From: Candidatus Nitrosotenuis sp.
GTDB taxonomy: Archaea > Thermoproteota > Nitrososphaeria > Nitrososphaerales > Nitrosopumilaceae
Direction: 5' to 3'
Assembly: GCA_004322465.1 (NCBI GenBank)
Contig: SCVO01000121.1
Coordinates: 1 to 48,957 of the forward strand
DNA: 48,957 nucleotides
Under the pieces are notes generated by a model. The model saw nothing but the letters and a program-made list of their open reading frames with translations, was not told the DNA's origin and did not search any database. This document shows positions 4,077 through 37,643 of the stretch, in pieces; the first letter of the stretch is position 1; each line of letters starts with the position of its first letter. The translations under genes were made by a program, and so were the position numbers.

Positions 4077-4098
4077 TGTTTATCATGCTTGATAATCA
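4077..4098 (+). promoter_or_regulatory. Dyad promoter element for CBS gene at 4138
   Basis: TGTTTATCA-N4-TGATAATCA. The proximal end is 39 bp before the ATG, and a TATA-like gaattaaaa follows near 4105-4113. Confidence 0.6.
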
Positions 4099-9963: not shown

Positions 9964-10296
9964 ATGCAAATACAATTTGTGGGAAGAAAAATTGAGGACG
10001 AAAAAAAGGATACAATCCTTGAAATAATGTCAGATAAGTATTGTCGGGCAATAATCGAATCGACCATGAATGTTCCAAGATCGGCAATTGAGATAAGTGC
10101 AGAGTGCAAGATTCCGATCAGTACCGTTTACAGAAGATTACAGAATCTTCATGATTCAAAGCTTCTTGGAATCTCAGGTTCGATTACCTCAGAAGGAAAA
10201 AAACACTTCCTATACAAAAGCAAGGTAAAGGCGATGACATCGGTGTTTAATGGAGGTAACGTCGAAGTCGAAATAGTTCCTAATACATCAAATTAG
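9964..10296 (+). CDS. Winged-helix transcriptional regulator
   Basis: A 110-residue DNA-binding protein with an ArsR/MarR-like winged-helix core. The segment at residues 40-75 (SAIEISAECKIPISTVYRRLQNLHDSKLL) is a clear helix-turn-helix, followed by a wing (GSITSEGKKHFLYKSKVKAM). The C-terminus is a short beta-strand tail (VEVEIVPN). Target and ligand are unknown. It precedes a CBS-domain gene on the same strand, but that gene has its own promoter. This regulator lacks the dyad element present on most neighbours, so it is a possible but unproven candidate to bind it. Confidence 0.8.
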   Translation: MQIQFVGRKIEDEKKDTILEIMSDKYCRAIIESTMNVPRSAIEISAECKIPISTVYRRLQNLHDSKLLGISGSITSEGKKHFLYKSKVKAMTSVFNGGNVEVEIVPNTSN

Positions 10297-10313
10297 GAAC
10301 ATTTTTGATTTTT

Positions 10314-10335
10314 TTAAAATCAACCTTGAGAATCA
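10314..10335 (+). promoter_or_regulatory. Dyad promoter element for CBS gene at 10374
   Basis: TTAAAATCA-N4-TGAGAATCA, ending 38 bp before the ATG at 10374. A TATA-like gcttaaatc lies at 10343-10351. This decides between the ATG and the upstream TTG. Confidence 0.55.
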
Positions 10336-10373
10336 AAACTCGGCTTAAATCAACAATAAAAGATTACAACACC

Positions 10374-11231
10374 ATGGAAAACAAGCTATATTCTTCACCA
10401 GTATTTACGTTAACTGAACATAGCTTTATTCACGATGCGCTGGTACTGATGCAGACCAATTTTATCAAAAGAGTAGTAATAGTCAAAGACAGAAAGCCGA
10501 TAGGAATAGTAACGGAACGTGACATTAACAGATTTCTTGAGAACGACAACACGAAGCGGGTACTAGATGAGGTTCCATTAAAAGAGATAATGAGAAAGAA
10601 TTTGATCACGGTAATAGCTAATCAGCAAGATCACCTAGAACAGTGTGCTACCAGAATGGAGACGTTTAAGATAGGATCAATCATCGTGACGGATGACGAT
10701 GGTAATCTTGTTGGGATAACGACACAGACAGATATTGCAAGATTTTATGCAAAGATGTATCCGGGAAAATACAAAGTAAAGGACTACATGACTGACAAAG
10801 TCTTTACTTGCCGTCATTCGGATTCATTGAAATTTGCTTTGGAGATGATTAACAAAAACAACACTTCGCGACTGGTAATTACGGATAATGAAGGAAATGT
10901 GAAAGGCGTCATTACAACAAATACATTTCTAAAACACAGCTCCTATTTCAAAAAGCCCATCAAGACAAGAGAATACCTACTTCCAAACGAATCCGCCAGT
11001 AACTTGGCAGTAAGTGATCTTGTTAAAAACGAAGTATTAATGATAGAGCCAGATGACGACTTGGCAACTGCCGCACACCTCATGGTGAGAAACAATATTG
11101 GCGGAGTCCCAGTAATTGTGATGCAAAAAAATAAGATGGTTGGCATTGTCACAAAATTTGACATAGTGAGGGCATTTGCAGAGGTCTTGCCACATAGAAA
11201 ACTACTAGAAAAATACAGGACATTTCATTAA
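10374..11231 (+). CDS. Four-CBS-domain protein
   Basis: A 285-residue soluble protein made of two CBS pairs. Well-formed repeats are visible: FIHDALVLMQTNFIKRVVIVKDRKPIGIVTERD and a second copy ending GSIIVTDDDGNLVGITTQTDIARF, then a third ending RLVITDNEGNVKGVITTNTF and a fourth ending GGVPVIVMQKNKMVGIVTKFDIV. CBS modules of this type commonly bind AMP, ADP, ATP or SAM. I chose the ATG at 10374 instead of an upstream TTG at 10305, because a TATA-like box and dyad sit at the usual distance from it. No effector domain is attached, so it probably acts on a partner. Confidence 0.85.
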   Translation: MENKLYSSPVFTLTEHSFIHDALVLMQTNFIKRVVIVKDRKPIGIVTERDINRFLENDNTKRVLDEVPLKEIMRKNLITVIANQQDHLEQCATRMETFKIGSIIVTDDDGNLVGITTQTDIARFYAKMYPGKYKVKDYMTDKVFTCRHSDSLKFALEMINKNNTSRLVITDNEGNVKGVITTNTFLKHSSYFKKPIKTREYLLPNESASNLAVSDLVKNEVLMIEPDDDLATAAHLMVRNNIGGVPVIVMQKNKMVGIVTKFDIVRAFAEVLPHRKLLEKYRTFH

Positions 11232-13135: not shown

Positions 13136-13894
13136 TCACCGATAAATTGGGGGGGCTTTTGATGGTAGTTGCGGTTCCTGCTGGTATAGTGTATCGAGTG
13201 TTTCCTGCATGAGGTTTCTGTGCTGTATTCTAAGATAGTCAACCCGTTTTTGGATTTCGCTTGTGTCCACAGATATTTTTAATATTTTTGCCAGTGTGGT
13301 TACCGCATGAATTGATGCTTGTGGATCGGGAAAGAATGGGTGACATGAGGTATACAGAACAAGAAGTGGTATGTGCTTATTCCTAAATGAAATAATGATA
13401 GCCGCATCGGTTCCAATTATTGTTCCAGCAATGAATTTTGGGATGTCGTTTTCATACATTAATTTCTCAAGCGATGGATCAGTTGCAAGACCATAGGTTT
13501 TGATGTCTTTTTTATCTACGTATTGAGCATCCACTCCGCTTGGGACGATGATCTTGTTTATTTTGTTCTTGATGCAAAAGGCAAGCACTGCTTCTGTAAA
13601 GTCATAAGAAAGTTCGGAATAAATTGGAATCTCTGAGATTATAGCATAGATATTGTCCTTTCTGTGTATCCGAATTGGGCCAATTACATCCCCATTCTCT
13701 ACAAAAACTGTAGGCGGCAGATCGGGATGATTAATCTCCCCAACTATTTTCATCTTCAGGTGTTGTATGATGTAGGATAGGGTAAAAGTCCCAATCAGAC
13801 CGTTTCCTGGAAACCCAAGTATTAGAATTCTTTCAGCCTGTAATTTTTTTGCTGCCGTTTTTGTTTCCAAGCAATATAGAGTGATTTCAATCAC
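13136..13894 (-). CDS. PAC2 family protein (proteasome assembly chaperone-like)
   Basis: A 252-residue protein of the archaeal PAC2 family, related to eukaryotic proteasome assembly chaperone 2. Signature stretches are ILGFPGNGLIGTFTLSYIIQHL (residues 25-46), EINHPDLPPTVFVENGDVIGPIRIH, IISEIPI and IIVPSGVD. The C-terminal half has the family's TDAAIIISFRNKHIPLLVLYTSCHPFFPDPQASIHAVTTL region, then a helical tail. The downstream Hsp20 gene starts four bases after its stop, so the two are likely translated together and act in protein quality control. No clear dyad precedes it. Confidence 0.87.
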   Translation of the reverse strand: MIEITLYCLETKTAAKKLQAERILILGFPGNGLIGTFTLSYIIQHLKMKIVGEINHPDLPPTVFVENGDVIGPIRIHRKDNIYAIISEIPIYSELSYDFTEAVLAFCIKNKINKIIVPSGVDAQYVDKKDIKTYGLATDPSLEKLMYENDIPKFIAGTIIGTDAAIIISFRNKHIPLLVLYTSCHPFFPDPQASIHAVTTLAKILKISVDTSEIQKRVDYLRIQHRNLMQETLDTLYQQEPQLPSKAPPIYR

Positions 13895-13933: not shown

Positions 13934-15091
13934 TTATCTTTCCATCTTTCTAATACTGAATTTGTAACGGTTTTTTGAATTTTTTGTATGCTTTGCGAGG
14001 CTTTCGATTAATAGGTGTACTATCTCATCAGTCACTTTGCTCAGCTCAAATCCAGTTCTTGTAAAGATGTGCCTCTTATGTGGCGTCAGTATTGTAGTAG
14101 ATACCTCATAGTTGTACCGACTGTTTACACCATGAAGTTTTTTTATGTAAACTCTGGCCTCCTGTATGTCGGGATATACTTTTTGAAGTCGATCCAGAGC
14201 TTTTACGAATTTTTGTTTTATGATATCAGCGTTGTCGTCAAGCGGCATGCCAACAATGAAAAGCGGAACCGTGCTTTTCAGTTTTGTAGTAAGTAGATTA
14301 AGAATATCACGATATGTGATGATTCCGTGAAGGTTATTCCGTAATGACACAAGACAGAATGTTGTGTCTGCATGAAGCATTGAATCCACCACACTGTTAA
14401 GATCATCAAGCGGGGCACACATTGCCATACGATTTGTGCCGAGGCTACCTACTCGGGATTCAAGTGTTCGTATCTTGCTTGAGCCAAGATCCCTCCTCCC
14501 AACGCGTTCAGGTGTGGATATTATGCTCAAGAGATGGTTTGATGTCAGAACTTGAGACACATTGTCCTTTTTTATGACTGGCAAGTGATCAAATTTTTTA
14601 TCAACCAGTATCCTTCTTGCTGTACTTAACGGAGTATCCATGTCGATAATTACTGGATCTGGTGTAAAGATTTGAGTTGCTGTTATCCACCTATTGTCTT
14701 TATTTGAAATTAGTTTAAGAATGCTTTTTGCTTCCACCACTCCAATTATTTTGTTGTCTTTGACAACAGGCACGGCGCGAACTCCATTATGAGTTATTAT
14801 GTCGGCTGCTTTTCCCACAGTGTCATTTTCTGAAAGGCTCGGAATCGGATTCAGTAGTGCGGTAACGCTCATTGGAACTGAATACTTGTGTTGAATTAGC
14901 TTTCGTACGTTTACGGTGAGAGTGTGATTTTTCTCTTGACAGAAAACGTCAAAAGTGTTGTTATTTAGGATCTTGTTTATTACTTGTGACAACGTATCTG
15001 ACGGTTCAATCAATGTGGCTTTACTAATTATTGAACGAACTTTTGTGTTAACAACATCACTCATGTGTTCATGGATTACATCTAAACTCAT
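13934..15091 (-). CDS. CBS-domain protein with C-terminal HPF/S30AE-like domain
   Basis: A 385-residue protein. Residues 1-270 contain about four CBS repeats, with clear ones at 85-130 (AADIITHNGVRAVPVVKDNKIIGVVEAKSI) and 145-195. Residues 276-372 match the pattern of ribosome hibernation factors. They begin with a strand LFIVGMPL, then a helix ending RLQKVYPD, the strand IQEARVYIKK, and strands RYNYEVSTTIL and KRHIFTRTG, and close with a helix DEIVHLLIESLAKHTK. This lines up with bacterial HPF from LNITGNNVEIT to QLTKHK. It may be an adenylate-controlled ribosome-binding protein. The HPF assignment is mine, by eye. Confidence 0.75.
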   Translation of the reverse strand: MSLDVIHEHMSDVVNTKVRSIISKATLIEPSDTLSQVINKILNNNTFDVFCQEKNHTLTVNVRKLIQHKYSVPMSVTALLNPIPSLSENDTVGKAADIITHNGVRAVPVVKDNKIIGVVEAKSILKLISNKDNRWITATQIFTPDPVIIDMDTPLSTARRILVDKKFDHLPVIKKDNVSQVLTSNHLLSIISTPERVGRRDLGSSKIRTLESRVGSLGTNRMAMCAPLDDLNSVVDSMLHADTTFCLVSLRNNLHGIITYRDILNLLTTKLKSTVPLFIVGMPLDDNADIIKQKFVKALDRLQKVYPDIQEARVYIKKLHGVNSRYNYEVSTTILTPHKRHIFTRTGFELSKVTDEIVHLLIESLAKHTKNSKNRYKFSIRKMER

Positions 15092-15140: not shown

Positions 15141-15175
15141 CAATATTCAGATTTGATATTCAAATATGATATTCT
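15141..15175. promoter_or_regulatory. Three tandem 13-bp dyad sites between divergent CBS genes
   Basis: CAATATTCA, TGATATTCA and TGATATTCT start at 15141, 15154 and 15167, each 13 bp apart. The array ends 37 bp before the ATG at 15213 and begins 49 bp before the ATG at 15091. Confidence 0.55.
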
Positions 15176-15212: not shown

Positions 15213-16073
15213 ATGAAGCTAAAGAATCCAAATCTTGATCAGGTGATCAGGAATTCGGTTACGATAACAAACGATACGAGCTTGCTTGAGGCAAGGGAAT
15301 TTCTACTTAGACACAAAGTTGGAAGGCTTCCAATTCTCGATAATAACAAAAAACCGGTCGGAATAATCACGGAAAAGGACTTTGTAAGGGCGATCTACAA
15401 AATTGGAGGAAAATCAATTGAAAAAGTTCTAGTCAGGGATGTCATGTCAAAAAATTTGATTACCGTAACAAGGAACGATACAATTTACAAATGTGCAAAA
15501 CTGATGCAAAATCACAAGATTAGCTCCATTCTGGTACTAGAAGAAAACGGCATCTTGGCCGGAATAGTCACAAAAACAGACATTGCGTCGGTGTTTTTGA
15601 CCCAGTCTGTTGGACCACTAAAGGTTTCCCAGATAATGACTCCGAATGTAATCACAGTCATGCCTGCAGACTCGCTTCTTTTGGTGGAGAGTCTTCTTGT
15701 AAAATATAGAATATCGAGAATAGTAGTAGAGAGAAACAAGAAACCGGTTGGAATAATCACAAACAGAGATTTTATTCCTGCAAAGATGCCAAGATGGATA
15801 CGACAATTTGCAGACCCAAAAGAAGTTGAAGATTTTAGGTTAAACCCACGTCCGGATGAATTTAAGGTGAATCAGCTTTCATACATTTTGTCATTCAGGG
15901 CAGAAGACATCATGACACCAAACCCAATCACTGTCGGTGTGAACGAGGATGTCTCTACAGTAGTTCTTCTTATGATCAGAAATGGAATCAGTGGATTGCC
16001 TGTTGTCAGAAAATCGCTACTAGCCGGAATCGTCACAAAATCAGACATCGTGAAGACTGTTGCAGAAGAGTAA
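15213..16073 (+). CDS. Four-CBS-domain protein, paralogue of 36007
   Basis: A 286-residue protein with two CBS pairs: GRLPILDNNKKPVGIITEKDF, SSILVLEENGILAGIVTKTDI, SRIVVERNKKPVGIITNRDF and SGLPVVRKSLLAGIVTKSDI. A linker with PRWIRQFADPKEVEDFRLNPRPDEF separates repeats three and four. The product at 36007 has the same length and the same linker position, so the two are paralogues. Probable role: adenosyl-ligand sensing. A TATA-like gatatatttaac precedes the ATG and a dyad array lies 37 bp upstream. Confidence 0.87.
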   Translation: MKLKNPNLDQVIRNSVTITNDTSLLEAREFLLRHKVGRLPILDNNKKPVGIITEKDFVRAIYKIGGKSIEKVLVRDVMSKNLITVTRNDTIYKCAKLMQNHKISSILVLEENGILAGIVTKTDIASVFLTQSVGPLKVSQIMTPNVITVMPADSLLLVESLLVKYRISRIVVERNKKPVGIITNRDFIPAKMPRWIRQFADPKEVEDFRLNPRPDEFKVNQLSYILSFRAEDIMTPNPITVGVNEDVSTVVLLMIRNGISGLPVVRKSLLAGIVTKSDIVKTVAEE

Positions 16074-18816: not shown

Positions 18817-18855
18817 TTCGTAGATTTAAAACAAGACATGTGAATGGATATGCGT

Positions 18856-19440
18856 ATGATAGATGTCCTTGATAGACCAGTTTCTGAATTTATGGAGACC
18901 CGATTGTTAGCACAAGTGAGTGAACTAACAGTAACTGATGCAGTGAATACAATGATTGAAAATGGAATAGATAGCGTAATCGTTCTTGAAGATAATGAGA
19001 TATCAGGCATTGTGACTTACAAAGATATACTTTATGATGTTGTTGCAAAAGGAAGAGATCCTCTCAAAACTACAATAAAAGAAATCATGCATAAACCGCT
19101 CATTGTCATTCATAGAGATGCAAAGGTAAGGGAAGCCATATCATTAATGAGTAAAAACGATATTCGTAGACTAATCGTAACTGATGATAATAGGCCCATA
19201 GGAATAATCTCTCAGAAAACAATGGTAGGAAATATGACCGACTATTCTATTGCTCTGCCTGAACTTGAAATTCCAAATAAGATCAGATGCCCATACTGTT
19301 CCTCAATATTTGATGATAAGAAAATATTATCCTCTCACATAGATAGCATACACATAGGAAAAGGTCTTTTTGAAGGAAATCTGGCAAGAAGAGACGATCT
19401 AGGCTCCATCAGCAGCCCAAACTATTCAAAAACAGTTTAG
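18856..19440 (+). CDS. CBS pair fused to a C2H2-type zinc finger
   Basis: A 194-residue protein. Two CBS repeats occupy residues 5-125 (GIDSVIVLEDNEISGIVTYKDI and IRRLIVTDDNRPIGIISQKTM). A linker leads to a C2H2 zinc finger: C145-x2-C148-x12-H161-x4-H166. The remaining tail is polar. The architecture suggests an adenosyl-ligand switch controlling a nucleic-acid- or protein-binding finger. In-frame ATGs also exist at 18844 and 18850. I prefer 18856 because the TATA-like box and dyad then have the spacing seen at other promoters. Confidence 0.8.
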   Translation: MIDVLDRPVSEFMETRLLAQVSELTVTDAVNTMIENGIDSVIVLEDNEISGIVTYKDILYDVVAKGRDPLKTTIKEIMHKPLIVIHRDAKVREAISLMSKNDIRRLIVTDDNRPIGIISQKTMVGNMTDYSIALPELEIPNKIRCPYCSSIFDDKKILSSHIDSIHIGKGLFEGNLARRDDLGSISSPNYSKTV

Positions 19441-31955: not shown

Positions 31956-32396
31956 TTATTCCTTTGGTTTCATTCGCAAAAGAATCTGCTCCGTAATTTT
32001 GCTCATCTCATCGCCTGAACCTATACTACACAGTCTGACAACATCGGACGTGGTTACCATCCCAACAAGTCTGCTGTCTTTGACAGCAGGAATTCTGTGG
32101 ATTTTACGCGTTTTCATTAATTGCGCAAGATCCCATACAGAGTCATCAGGATTAATTACGATTAGCGGAGAGGACATTGCCACTTTAACATTTGTTGACA
32201 GAGGCTTTCCTTTGGCAATTATTCGTCTAACTAGATCACGCTCGGTGATTATACCAACTGCGATACCATTTTCTAGCACAATAATTGCACCGATTGAGGC
32301 ATCATCCATCATTTTTGCAGCATCGCTAACGGTCATGGATGAGTCAATCGATATGACGTTTTTTTTCATTATATCACGAACGAGTGCCGCGCACAT
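31956..32396 (-). CDS. CBS-pair protein
   Basis: A 146-residue protein consisting of one CBS pair (Bateman module): AAKMMDDASIGAIIVLENGIAVGIITERDLVRRII and VWDLAQLMKTRKIHRIPAVKDSRLVGMVTTSDVVRL. The closest relative in the window is the product at 37167. It is expected to dimerise and bind an adenosyl ligand. It is divergent from the gene at 32525, with separate dyads facing each gene. Confidence 0.88.
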   Translation of the reverse strand: MCAALVRDIMKKNVISIDSSMTVSDAAKMMDDASIGAIIVLENGIAVGIITERDLVRRIIAKGKPLSTNVKVAMSSPLIVINPDDSVWDLAQLMKTRKIHRIPAVKDSRLVGMVTTSDVVRLCSIGSGDEMSKITEQILLRMKPKE

Positions 32397-36006: not shown

Positions 36007-36873
36007 TCAAGCCTCTTCTGCCAATGCAAATACAATGTCAGATTTGGTGATTATTCCTACAAGCTTGGATTGTTTTACCACAGGGATTCCGCTTATGCCA
36101 TACCTATACATGACAAGTGCCGCCATAGAGACATCATCAGCGTATTCTATCGTTACTGGGTTTTTGGTCATGATATCTTCTGCCCTGAATGTCAGGACAT
36201 AGCCTAGTTGATTTATGTTGAATTGGCTTGGGTGTGGGCTATACCACACATCTCTTAATTCATTTGGATCAGTGTACATACCAAGCCTATTTGGTATTCT
36301 TATTGGAATGAAATCTCGATGAGTGACAATACCTACAGGTTTTTGGTTTTGTGTAACTACGACTCTGGAAATTTTGTTGTTGATCAGCATACTTTCAACT
36401 AAGAATAAAGAGTCTTTTGGAGATGCAGTAACAACCTTGGTCGTCATAATTTTTGATACTTTGAGCTGAGTAGACTCGTGACTTAAAAAATTAAAAACAA
36501 GATCAGTCTTTGTTAAAATTCCATCAAAATTCCCATCATCACGTAACACGATTACAGAGCTTATGTTGTTGTCTTTCATTATCTTTGCACATCTATACAC
36601 AGAATCTTTTTTTGTGACAGTAATCAAATTTTTTGACATCAAATCCGCCACTTGAATTGAGCCGAGTGGTTTTCTATCCAGTGGATAAAGCGCCTTAAGC
36701 ATGTCTTTTTCCGTTATGATTCCAACTGGTTTTCTGGATCTGTCTATGACCACAAGCCTTCCAATTTTGTATTTCTGGATTACTTCGATTGCGTCAAGTA
36801 TGCCTGTCTGAGGTGTGATCGTTATCGCTTTTTTTACTAGCGCACTATGCAAACTTGGGTTTTTTATCAGCAT
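36007..36873 (-). CDS. Four-CBS-domain protein, paralogue of 15213
   Basis: A 288-residue protein with two CBS pairs, closely parallel to the product at 15213: the same repeat positions, the same linker region (IPNRLGMYTDPNELRDVWYSP) before the last repeat, and the same C-terminal SGIPVVKQSKLVGIITKSDIV. It probably senses an adenosyl ligand. It is followed by a phosphoribosyltransferase gene on the same strand, which suggests a ligand-sensor/enzyme pairing. A dyad lies 40 bp upstream. Confidence 0.87.
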   Translation of the reverse strand: MLIKNPSLHSALVKKAITITPQTGILDAIEVIQKYKIGRLVVIDRSRKPVGIITEKDMLKALYPLDRKPLGSIQVADLMSKNLITVTKKDSVYRCAKIMKDNNISSVIVLRDDGNFDGILTKTDLVFNFLSHESTQLKVSKIMTTKVVTASPKDSLFLVESMLINNKISRVVVTQNQKPVGIVTHRDFIPIRIPNRLGMYTDPNELRDVWYSPHPSQFNINQLGYVLTFRAEDIMTKNPVTIEYADDVSMAALVMYRYGISGIPVVKQSKLVGIITKSDIVFALAEEA

Positions 36874-37166: not shown

Positions 37167-37643
37167 ATGGCACAGACTCCATCTAAGGTTCTTGTAAAAG
37201 ACATAATGACTAGATCAATAATTTCTGTCGATTCTGCAGCTACTGTCAATGAGGCTGCAAAGACGATGGAAAAGGCGAAAGTCGGTGCAGTGCTAATAAT
37301 GGAAAAAAATGTCCCTCTTGGAATAATGACGGATAGGGATTTTGCAATAAAGATTGCCGCTCATGCGTATCCAATACACACAAAGGTAAAGCAGGTGATG
37401 TCATCTCCTCTGATTTACATCAGTCCAGATGATGAAGTCTGGGTTGCGGCAGACTTGATGTATTCCAGGAAGATACGGAAGCTACCAGTTATAGATGAAG
37501 ACCGATTACTTGGAGTTGTAACTGCAACTGATCTTATCAAGTTGTTTACTGTTTGCAATAAAGAAGATGTACGAAAGATGTACTATAGTGCGCTTTCCAA
37601 AATATTTGATGATCATAACGAAGAAACAGTGGCAAATTACTAA
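37167..37643 (+). CDS. CBS-pair protein
   Basis: A 158-residue single CBS pair: AAKTMEKAKVGAVLIMEKNVPLGIMTDRDFAIKIAA and VAADLMYSRKIRKLPVIDEDRLLGVVTATDLIKL. It is similar to the product at 31956. A probable homodimer binding AMP, ATP or SAM. It is convergent with the VIT-type transporter, the stops being adjacent. It has a well-formed dyad and TATA-like promoter. Confidence 0.88.
   Translation: MAQTPSKVLVKDIMTRSIISVDSAATVNEAAKTMEKAKVGAVLIMEKNVPLGIMTDRDFAIKIAAHAYPIHTKVKQVMSSPLIYISPDDEVWVAADLMYSRKIRKLPVIDEDRLLGVVTATDLIKLFTVCNKEDVRKMYYSALSKIFDDHNEETVANY

Follow-up and report, generated by a model that had tools for sequence, protein, structure and literature searches.

A HibA-type gene of Candidatus Nitrosotenuis, very probably encoding a ribosome hibernation factor, with a divergent CBS partner gene and a candidate stress operator

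A gene on contig SCVO01000121.1 of Candidatus Nitrosotenuis sp. (Nitrosopumilaceae) raises the question of whether this archaeon possesses a ribosome hibernation factor and how such a factor would be controlled. The open reading frame lies at positions 13934–15091 on the minus strand of the 48,957-nucleotide stretch of DNA analyzed here (the window), starts with ATG, and encodes 385 amino acids. It is a genuine gene, and its relatives across genera of the same family are full-length with 39–83% identity (82%, 79%, and 74% in named Nitrosotenuis and Thaumarchaeota assemblies). An earlier reading of the letters without database searches (the sequence-only reading) had proposed that the protein joins a CBS module to an HPF/S30AE-like domain and acts as a ligand-gated hibernation factor. 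The fusion is found as proposed, and the HPF part of that reading is right and already known, since it corresponds to HibA as defined by Madru et al. (Nat Commun, 27 April 2026; PMC13324472), in which an HPF/RaiA domain is joined to a four-CBS module. According to the text of that article, members of this archaeal family protect idle ribosomes under stress by plugging them. We consider it highly likely that the gene is the Nitrosopumilaceae orthologue of hibA, whose product would reversibly block translation and shield ribosomes under the control of a candidate stress operator shared with a divergent four-CBS partner gene.

Pfam detects only CBS domains in the window protein (E 1.5e-24, in three stretches). 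The relationship of the whole chain emerges from an alignment of 43 relatives, which served both as the query profile for a search of all PDB chains and as the input for AlphaFold2. The top match of this profile is Pyrococcus abyssi HibA (9sr9_H, E 1.7e-35), residues 17–378 aligning with residues 5–382 of the chain. A second alignment, of 36 C-terminal domains alone, was used as a C-domain profile, and its three best PDB matches are the bacterial HPFs 6qbz (E 6.3e-4), 6s0x, and 5nd8. Twenty of these 36 sequences match Pfam S30AE at E up to 10, the best at 9.8e-6. Because the top family-profile match is 9sr9_H and the C-domain is HPF-like by both profile and fold, the window protein is firmly assigned, by sequence and fold, as an added member of the known HibA family. 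The fusion of the CBS module with the HPF-like domain therefore makes it very probably a ribosome hibernation factor.

The HPF/RaiA-like domain occupies residues 274–385 (13937–14272, minus strand) and ends in a basic SIRK tail. In the AlphaFold2 model, a strand (residues 277–280) is followed by a helix (288–305), three strands (311–319, 327–335, and 340–347), and a final helix (350–375), which is the strand-helix-strand-strand-strand-helix order that the sequence-only reading had predicted. The domain model has a predicted local distance difference test score (pLDDT) of 78.3, and Foldseek ranks 1 to 30 are all HPF, RaiA, YfiA, or plastid pY, with template modeling scores by target up to 0.78. 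Since the profile and fold searches both lead to HPF/RaiA/pY, the resemblance is far beyond chance. The small motifs of the earlier reading hold in part: Gly281 of IxG is invariant and Lys317 of VxxK is found in 42 of the 43 relatives, whereas the final LxKH is coincidental and local, the family consensus being LSKR. Together with these two residues, Lys294 and Arg381 show full or almost full conservation in the family. We attribute the weak Pfam matches to eIF-1a (E 0.11) and Catalase-rel (E 0.19 and 0.024) to chance. A PF02482 search of the organism's own genome gave nothing convincing, the best match (E 0.2) falling short of the cut-off.

The N-terminal CBS module spans residues 1–268 (14288–15091, minus strand). 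The model of the full protein (pLDDT 84.7) contains four CBS-like repeats, and the best Foldseek matches of this part are four-CBS modules such as MJ1225, AMPK gamma, and ribosome-bound archaeal CBS proteins. The position of the loop between CBS3 and CBS4 (residues 192–213; 14453–14518, minus strand) should be noted. In the family-profile alignment it is colinear and gapless with P. abyssi HibA around residues 190–207, and residues 191–210 form a flexible segment modeled at low confidence (pLDDT 61–62). In the ribosome-bound structures described in PMC13324472, the corresponding loop of P. abyssi HibA reaches the peptidyl transferase center, while the CBS module fills vacant tRNA sites and the C-domain lies in the mRNA/tRNA channel of the 30S subunit; deletion of hibA in Thermococcus barophilus delays recovery and lowers 70S levels. 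By analogy with the P. abyssi protein, the C-domain of the window protein would occupy the 30S channel, and its CBS module would fill vacant tRNA sites with the loop directed toward the peptidyl transferase center. The outcome would be a reversible translation block and shielding of the ribosome, probably with a comparable effect on recovery.

This assignment adds to the published distribution of HibA. The text of PMC13324472 names Nitrosopumilaceae among the lineages without identifiable hibernation factors, so that such a factor is now placed in this group of ammonia-oxidizing archaea, though the supplementary figures of that article may show partial presence. The C-domain profile matches 90 of 136 near-complete Nitrosopumilaceae genomes, in 11 of 20 genera. 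Sorted by open-frame length, fused HibA is the sole form in 51 genomes and a standalone protein the sole form in 34, while 4 have both, 1 a fragment, and 46 none, giving fused HibA in 55 genomes. Standalone forms account for 32 of the 39 matching genomes in genus g12 and for 2 of 5 in genus g18. In the C-domain tree (123 columns, which do not resolve where among the fused proteins the g12 standalone clade arose), the standalone forms of f1 and of family f3 fall into two clades, one for each, in agreement with the repeated loss of the CBS module described in the text of PMC13324472. A natural split is seen in one g12 genome (G223), which carries an intact 271-residue CBS-only gene derived from HibA and ending at the domain border (L088:3674-4486), with no C-domain remnant in the surrounding 7.5 kb read, and a separate standalone HPF gene elsewhere (L089:1426-1767). 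Broken hibA copies, with internal stops or a frame break, occur in G104 (L093), G233 (L094), G231 (L095), and G081 (L096); these genomes also hold a standalone or an intact copy.

Several observations weigh against the HibA assignment. The window protein itself has no S30AE match, and a PDB search with its single C-domain sequence yielded nothing but spurious chance matches of the PabI type (E about 0.8). This made the family profile necessary, and the C-domain assignment rests on profile and fold because the single sequence is not recognized. The HPF domain of HibA has two archaeal insertions, which the window protein may or may not share; in the profile alignment, the strand-strand loop of P. 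abyssi HibA is approximately three residues longer. 9SR9 is not among the Foldseek results shown, from a library ending on 8 April 2026. Biochemical data on a thaumarchaeal member of the family were not found. The silence of S30AE toward the single sequence, together with the CBS-only and broken copies in some g12 genomes, could mean that the protein is a degenerate HibA kept mainly for its CBS module, with a non-functional HPF domain. The near-invariance of Gly281, Lys294, Lys317, and Arg381 and a frame kept intact by the large majority of fused copies make this very improbable. It also appears improbable that the HPF fold serves a purpose other than hibernation, for example transcription or RNA protection, in a CBS-controlled RNA-binding or regulatory protein. 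CBS modules can be transcription regulators (HhpR, cited in PMC13324472), and according to the same text, pull-downs in Thermococcales recovered HibA together with DNA-replication proteins; however, the window protein is colinear over its full length with a ribosome-bound HibA, and the fold neighbors of its C-domain at ranks 1 to 30 are all ribosome factors.

Whether AMP or ATP on the CBS module directly switches ribosome binding on and off should be considered separately from hibernation itself. The GIxTxxD motif of CBS4 (residues 256–262; 14306–14326, minus strand) corresponds in position to the nucleotide site between CBS3 and CBS4 of P. abyssi HibA. Gly256, Ile257, Thr259, and Asp262 are invariant in all 43 relatives, and the TS pair of CBS3 is also kept. 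Adenylate binding at CBS3/CBS4 of the window protein is plausible from the retained TxxD, and the isolated P. abyssi module (HibA-CM) binds one AMP at this site with a dissociation constant of 12 μM (PMC13324472). Contrarily, in the P. abyssi reconstitutions reported there, AMP altered neither the ribosome-bound classes nor their distribution, ATP added only one weakly populated state, and the text states no clear effect of either nucleotide on ribosome binding. This observation leaves AMP/ATP gating of the window protein unproven and, in our judgment, rather unlikely, although the nucleotide may play some regulatory role. Of the ligand-gated hibernation factor proposed earlier, the hibernation factor is very probable, while the control of ribosome silencing by AMP/ATP levels finds no support in P. 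abyssi HibA.

What is new here, and of most use, is the pairing of hibA with the gene on the other side of the promoter, together with their operator. A four-CBS gene at 15213–16073 (plus strand) is divergent from hibA with 121 bp between the start codons, and the promoter is common to both, as the sequence-only reading had stated. The best PDB match of the partner is 9zni_6, at E 3.1e-21 with the single protein and 4.4e-34 with the profile, compared with 7.1e-25 for the next; the title of entry 9zni is that of a Methanosarcina acetivorans 70S complex with SriC and SriD. The four-CBS gene is the divergent neighbor, at 65–125 bp, in most fused loci of g1, g4, g15, g18, and g22, and it also adjoins standalone HPF genes, mostly at 52–109 bp. 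Some fused copies elsewhere lack it, and in g9 the partner is not adjacent. We also considered whether the neighbor corresponds to the paralogue at 36007–36873 and rejected this, as the neighbors of standalone genes branch among those of fused genes with support of 93/94, a value to be read with care because the branches are long. Judging from its closest solved structure, the partner may be a SriC-like CBS protein, which we offer as a lead. Its conserved position and its best match to a chain in a ribosome complex make a role in the same process as hibA a reasonable inference.

Between the two genes lie two overlapping copies, with a 13-bp period, of the palindrome GATWWTCA-N4-TGAWWATC, which we regard as a candidate operator: copy 1 at 15142–15161 (pattern GATWWTCANNNNTGAWWATC, 2 mismatches) and copy 2 at 15155–15174 (1 mismatch). 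Its core, TCA-N4-TGA, commonly lies about 45 bp upstream of the start codon and occurs 26 times in the 4,856 intergenic bases of the window, compared with 0–6 times for each of the remaining spacings between 0 and 11. In genome-wide pattern searches with up to 2 mismatches and reversed-pattern controls, the palindrome has 42 sites compared with 1 for the control, and 20 of the 42 fall between positions 4078 and 45969 of this 49-kb contig, which is 2.9% of the assembly. Ten more genomes of the genus, drawn evenly, have 12–51 sites each, against 0–4 for the control. The core precedes 29 of 30 fused genes linked to the partner (1.3 expected by shuffling) and 8 of 10 linked standalone genes. For fused genes without this linkage the count is 6 of 14, and in other families it is 1 of 14; the loci are related and these counts are not independent. 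Other palindrome sites precede Hsp20, Usp, CBS, P-type ATPase, PRPP-synthetase/nitroreductase, and thermosome genes. Since the palindrome in its promoter is concentrated in this stress-gene island, hibA is an apparent member of an unnamed stress regulon. These data support a regulon that includes hibA through the candidate operator, by which it would be expressed together with the Hsp20, Usp, thermosome, and other CBS genes. A sigma-70 promoter scan was discarded as inapplicable to archaea.

The surroundings of the gene are as follows. The PAC2-family gene (proteasome assembly chaperone type) at 13136–13894 (minus strand; Pfam PAC2, E 3.9e-31) is a probable co-transcript; in most loci of the genus it is conserved as the next gene downstream of hibA, at gaps of −1 to 67 bp and often overlapping it by one base. 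CBS genes cluster strongly in these 49 kb, which hold about 20 of the genome's 34 CBS matches, with CBS genes at 10305–11231, 15213–16073, 18844–19440, 31956–32396, 36007–36873, and 37167–37643. The same 49 kb also contains several Usp genes, two Hsp20 genes, a P-II gene, and a thermosome gene. A small helix-turn-helix protein at 9964–10296 (HTH_20 below the cut-off, E 6e-5) is encoded directly upstream of a four-CBS gene and is a possible regulator of the island.

With a candidate operator and a partner protein that can be put to the test, the coordination of ribosome dormancy with general stress in archaea becomes directly approachable, and the natural splits of HibA into HPF and CBS genes are a built-in test of the role of each half. 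Tentatively, hibernation in Nitrosopumilaceae might be run by a conserved divergent gene pair, in which HibA (or, in g12, a standalone HPF whose own CBS module was lost) is matched with a SriC-like four-CBS protein. A single operator, defining an undescribed general-stress regulon centered on the island, would switch on both. The partner could then supply a second ribosome plug or, where HibA is split, the CBS function in trans. We hold this proposal to be possible rather than probable.

Comparison with known systems places the window protein as follows. Bacterial HPF/RaiA/pY proteins (Pfam PF02482) share the fold and element order of the C-domain, with profile similarity to Staphylococcus aureus HPF, whereas the window protein adds a preceding CBS module and its own sequence falls below detection by the Pfam model. 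Dri of Pyrobaculum calidifontis (PDB 9e6q) is ribosome-bound and has two CBS modules but no HPF domain; the window protein, with one CBS module and an HPF-like domain, is not such a two-module fusion. The Sri proteins of M. acetivorans (PDB 9znf, 9zng, and 9zni) are ribosome-bound standalone CBS chains. The standalone HPF/RaiA-like proteins of g12 and some g18 genomes share the C-domain, the divergent four-CBS neighbor, and the operator with the window locus, but they lack the CBS module and form a separate, well-supported C-domain clade. The closest counterpart is P. abyssi HibA (Q9UYR4/Pab0961, PDB 9SR9; 392 residues compared with 385), which likewise has a four-CBS module followed by an HPF/RaiA-like domain, with the CBS3-CBS4 loop, the CBS4 ligand motif, and stress-linked control of the gene. 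The text of PMC13324472 reports that hibA in Thermococcales is controlled by the heat-shock regulator Phr, to which the apparent stress-regulon control in the window is parallel. The two proteins are remote in sequence, the full-length match having needed the family profile, and unlike the P. abyssi gene, the window gene has a divergent four-CBS partner and a palindromic operator.
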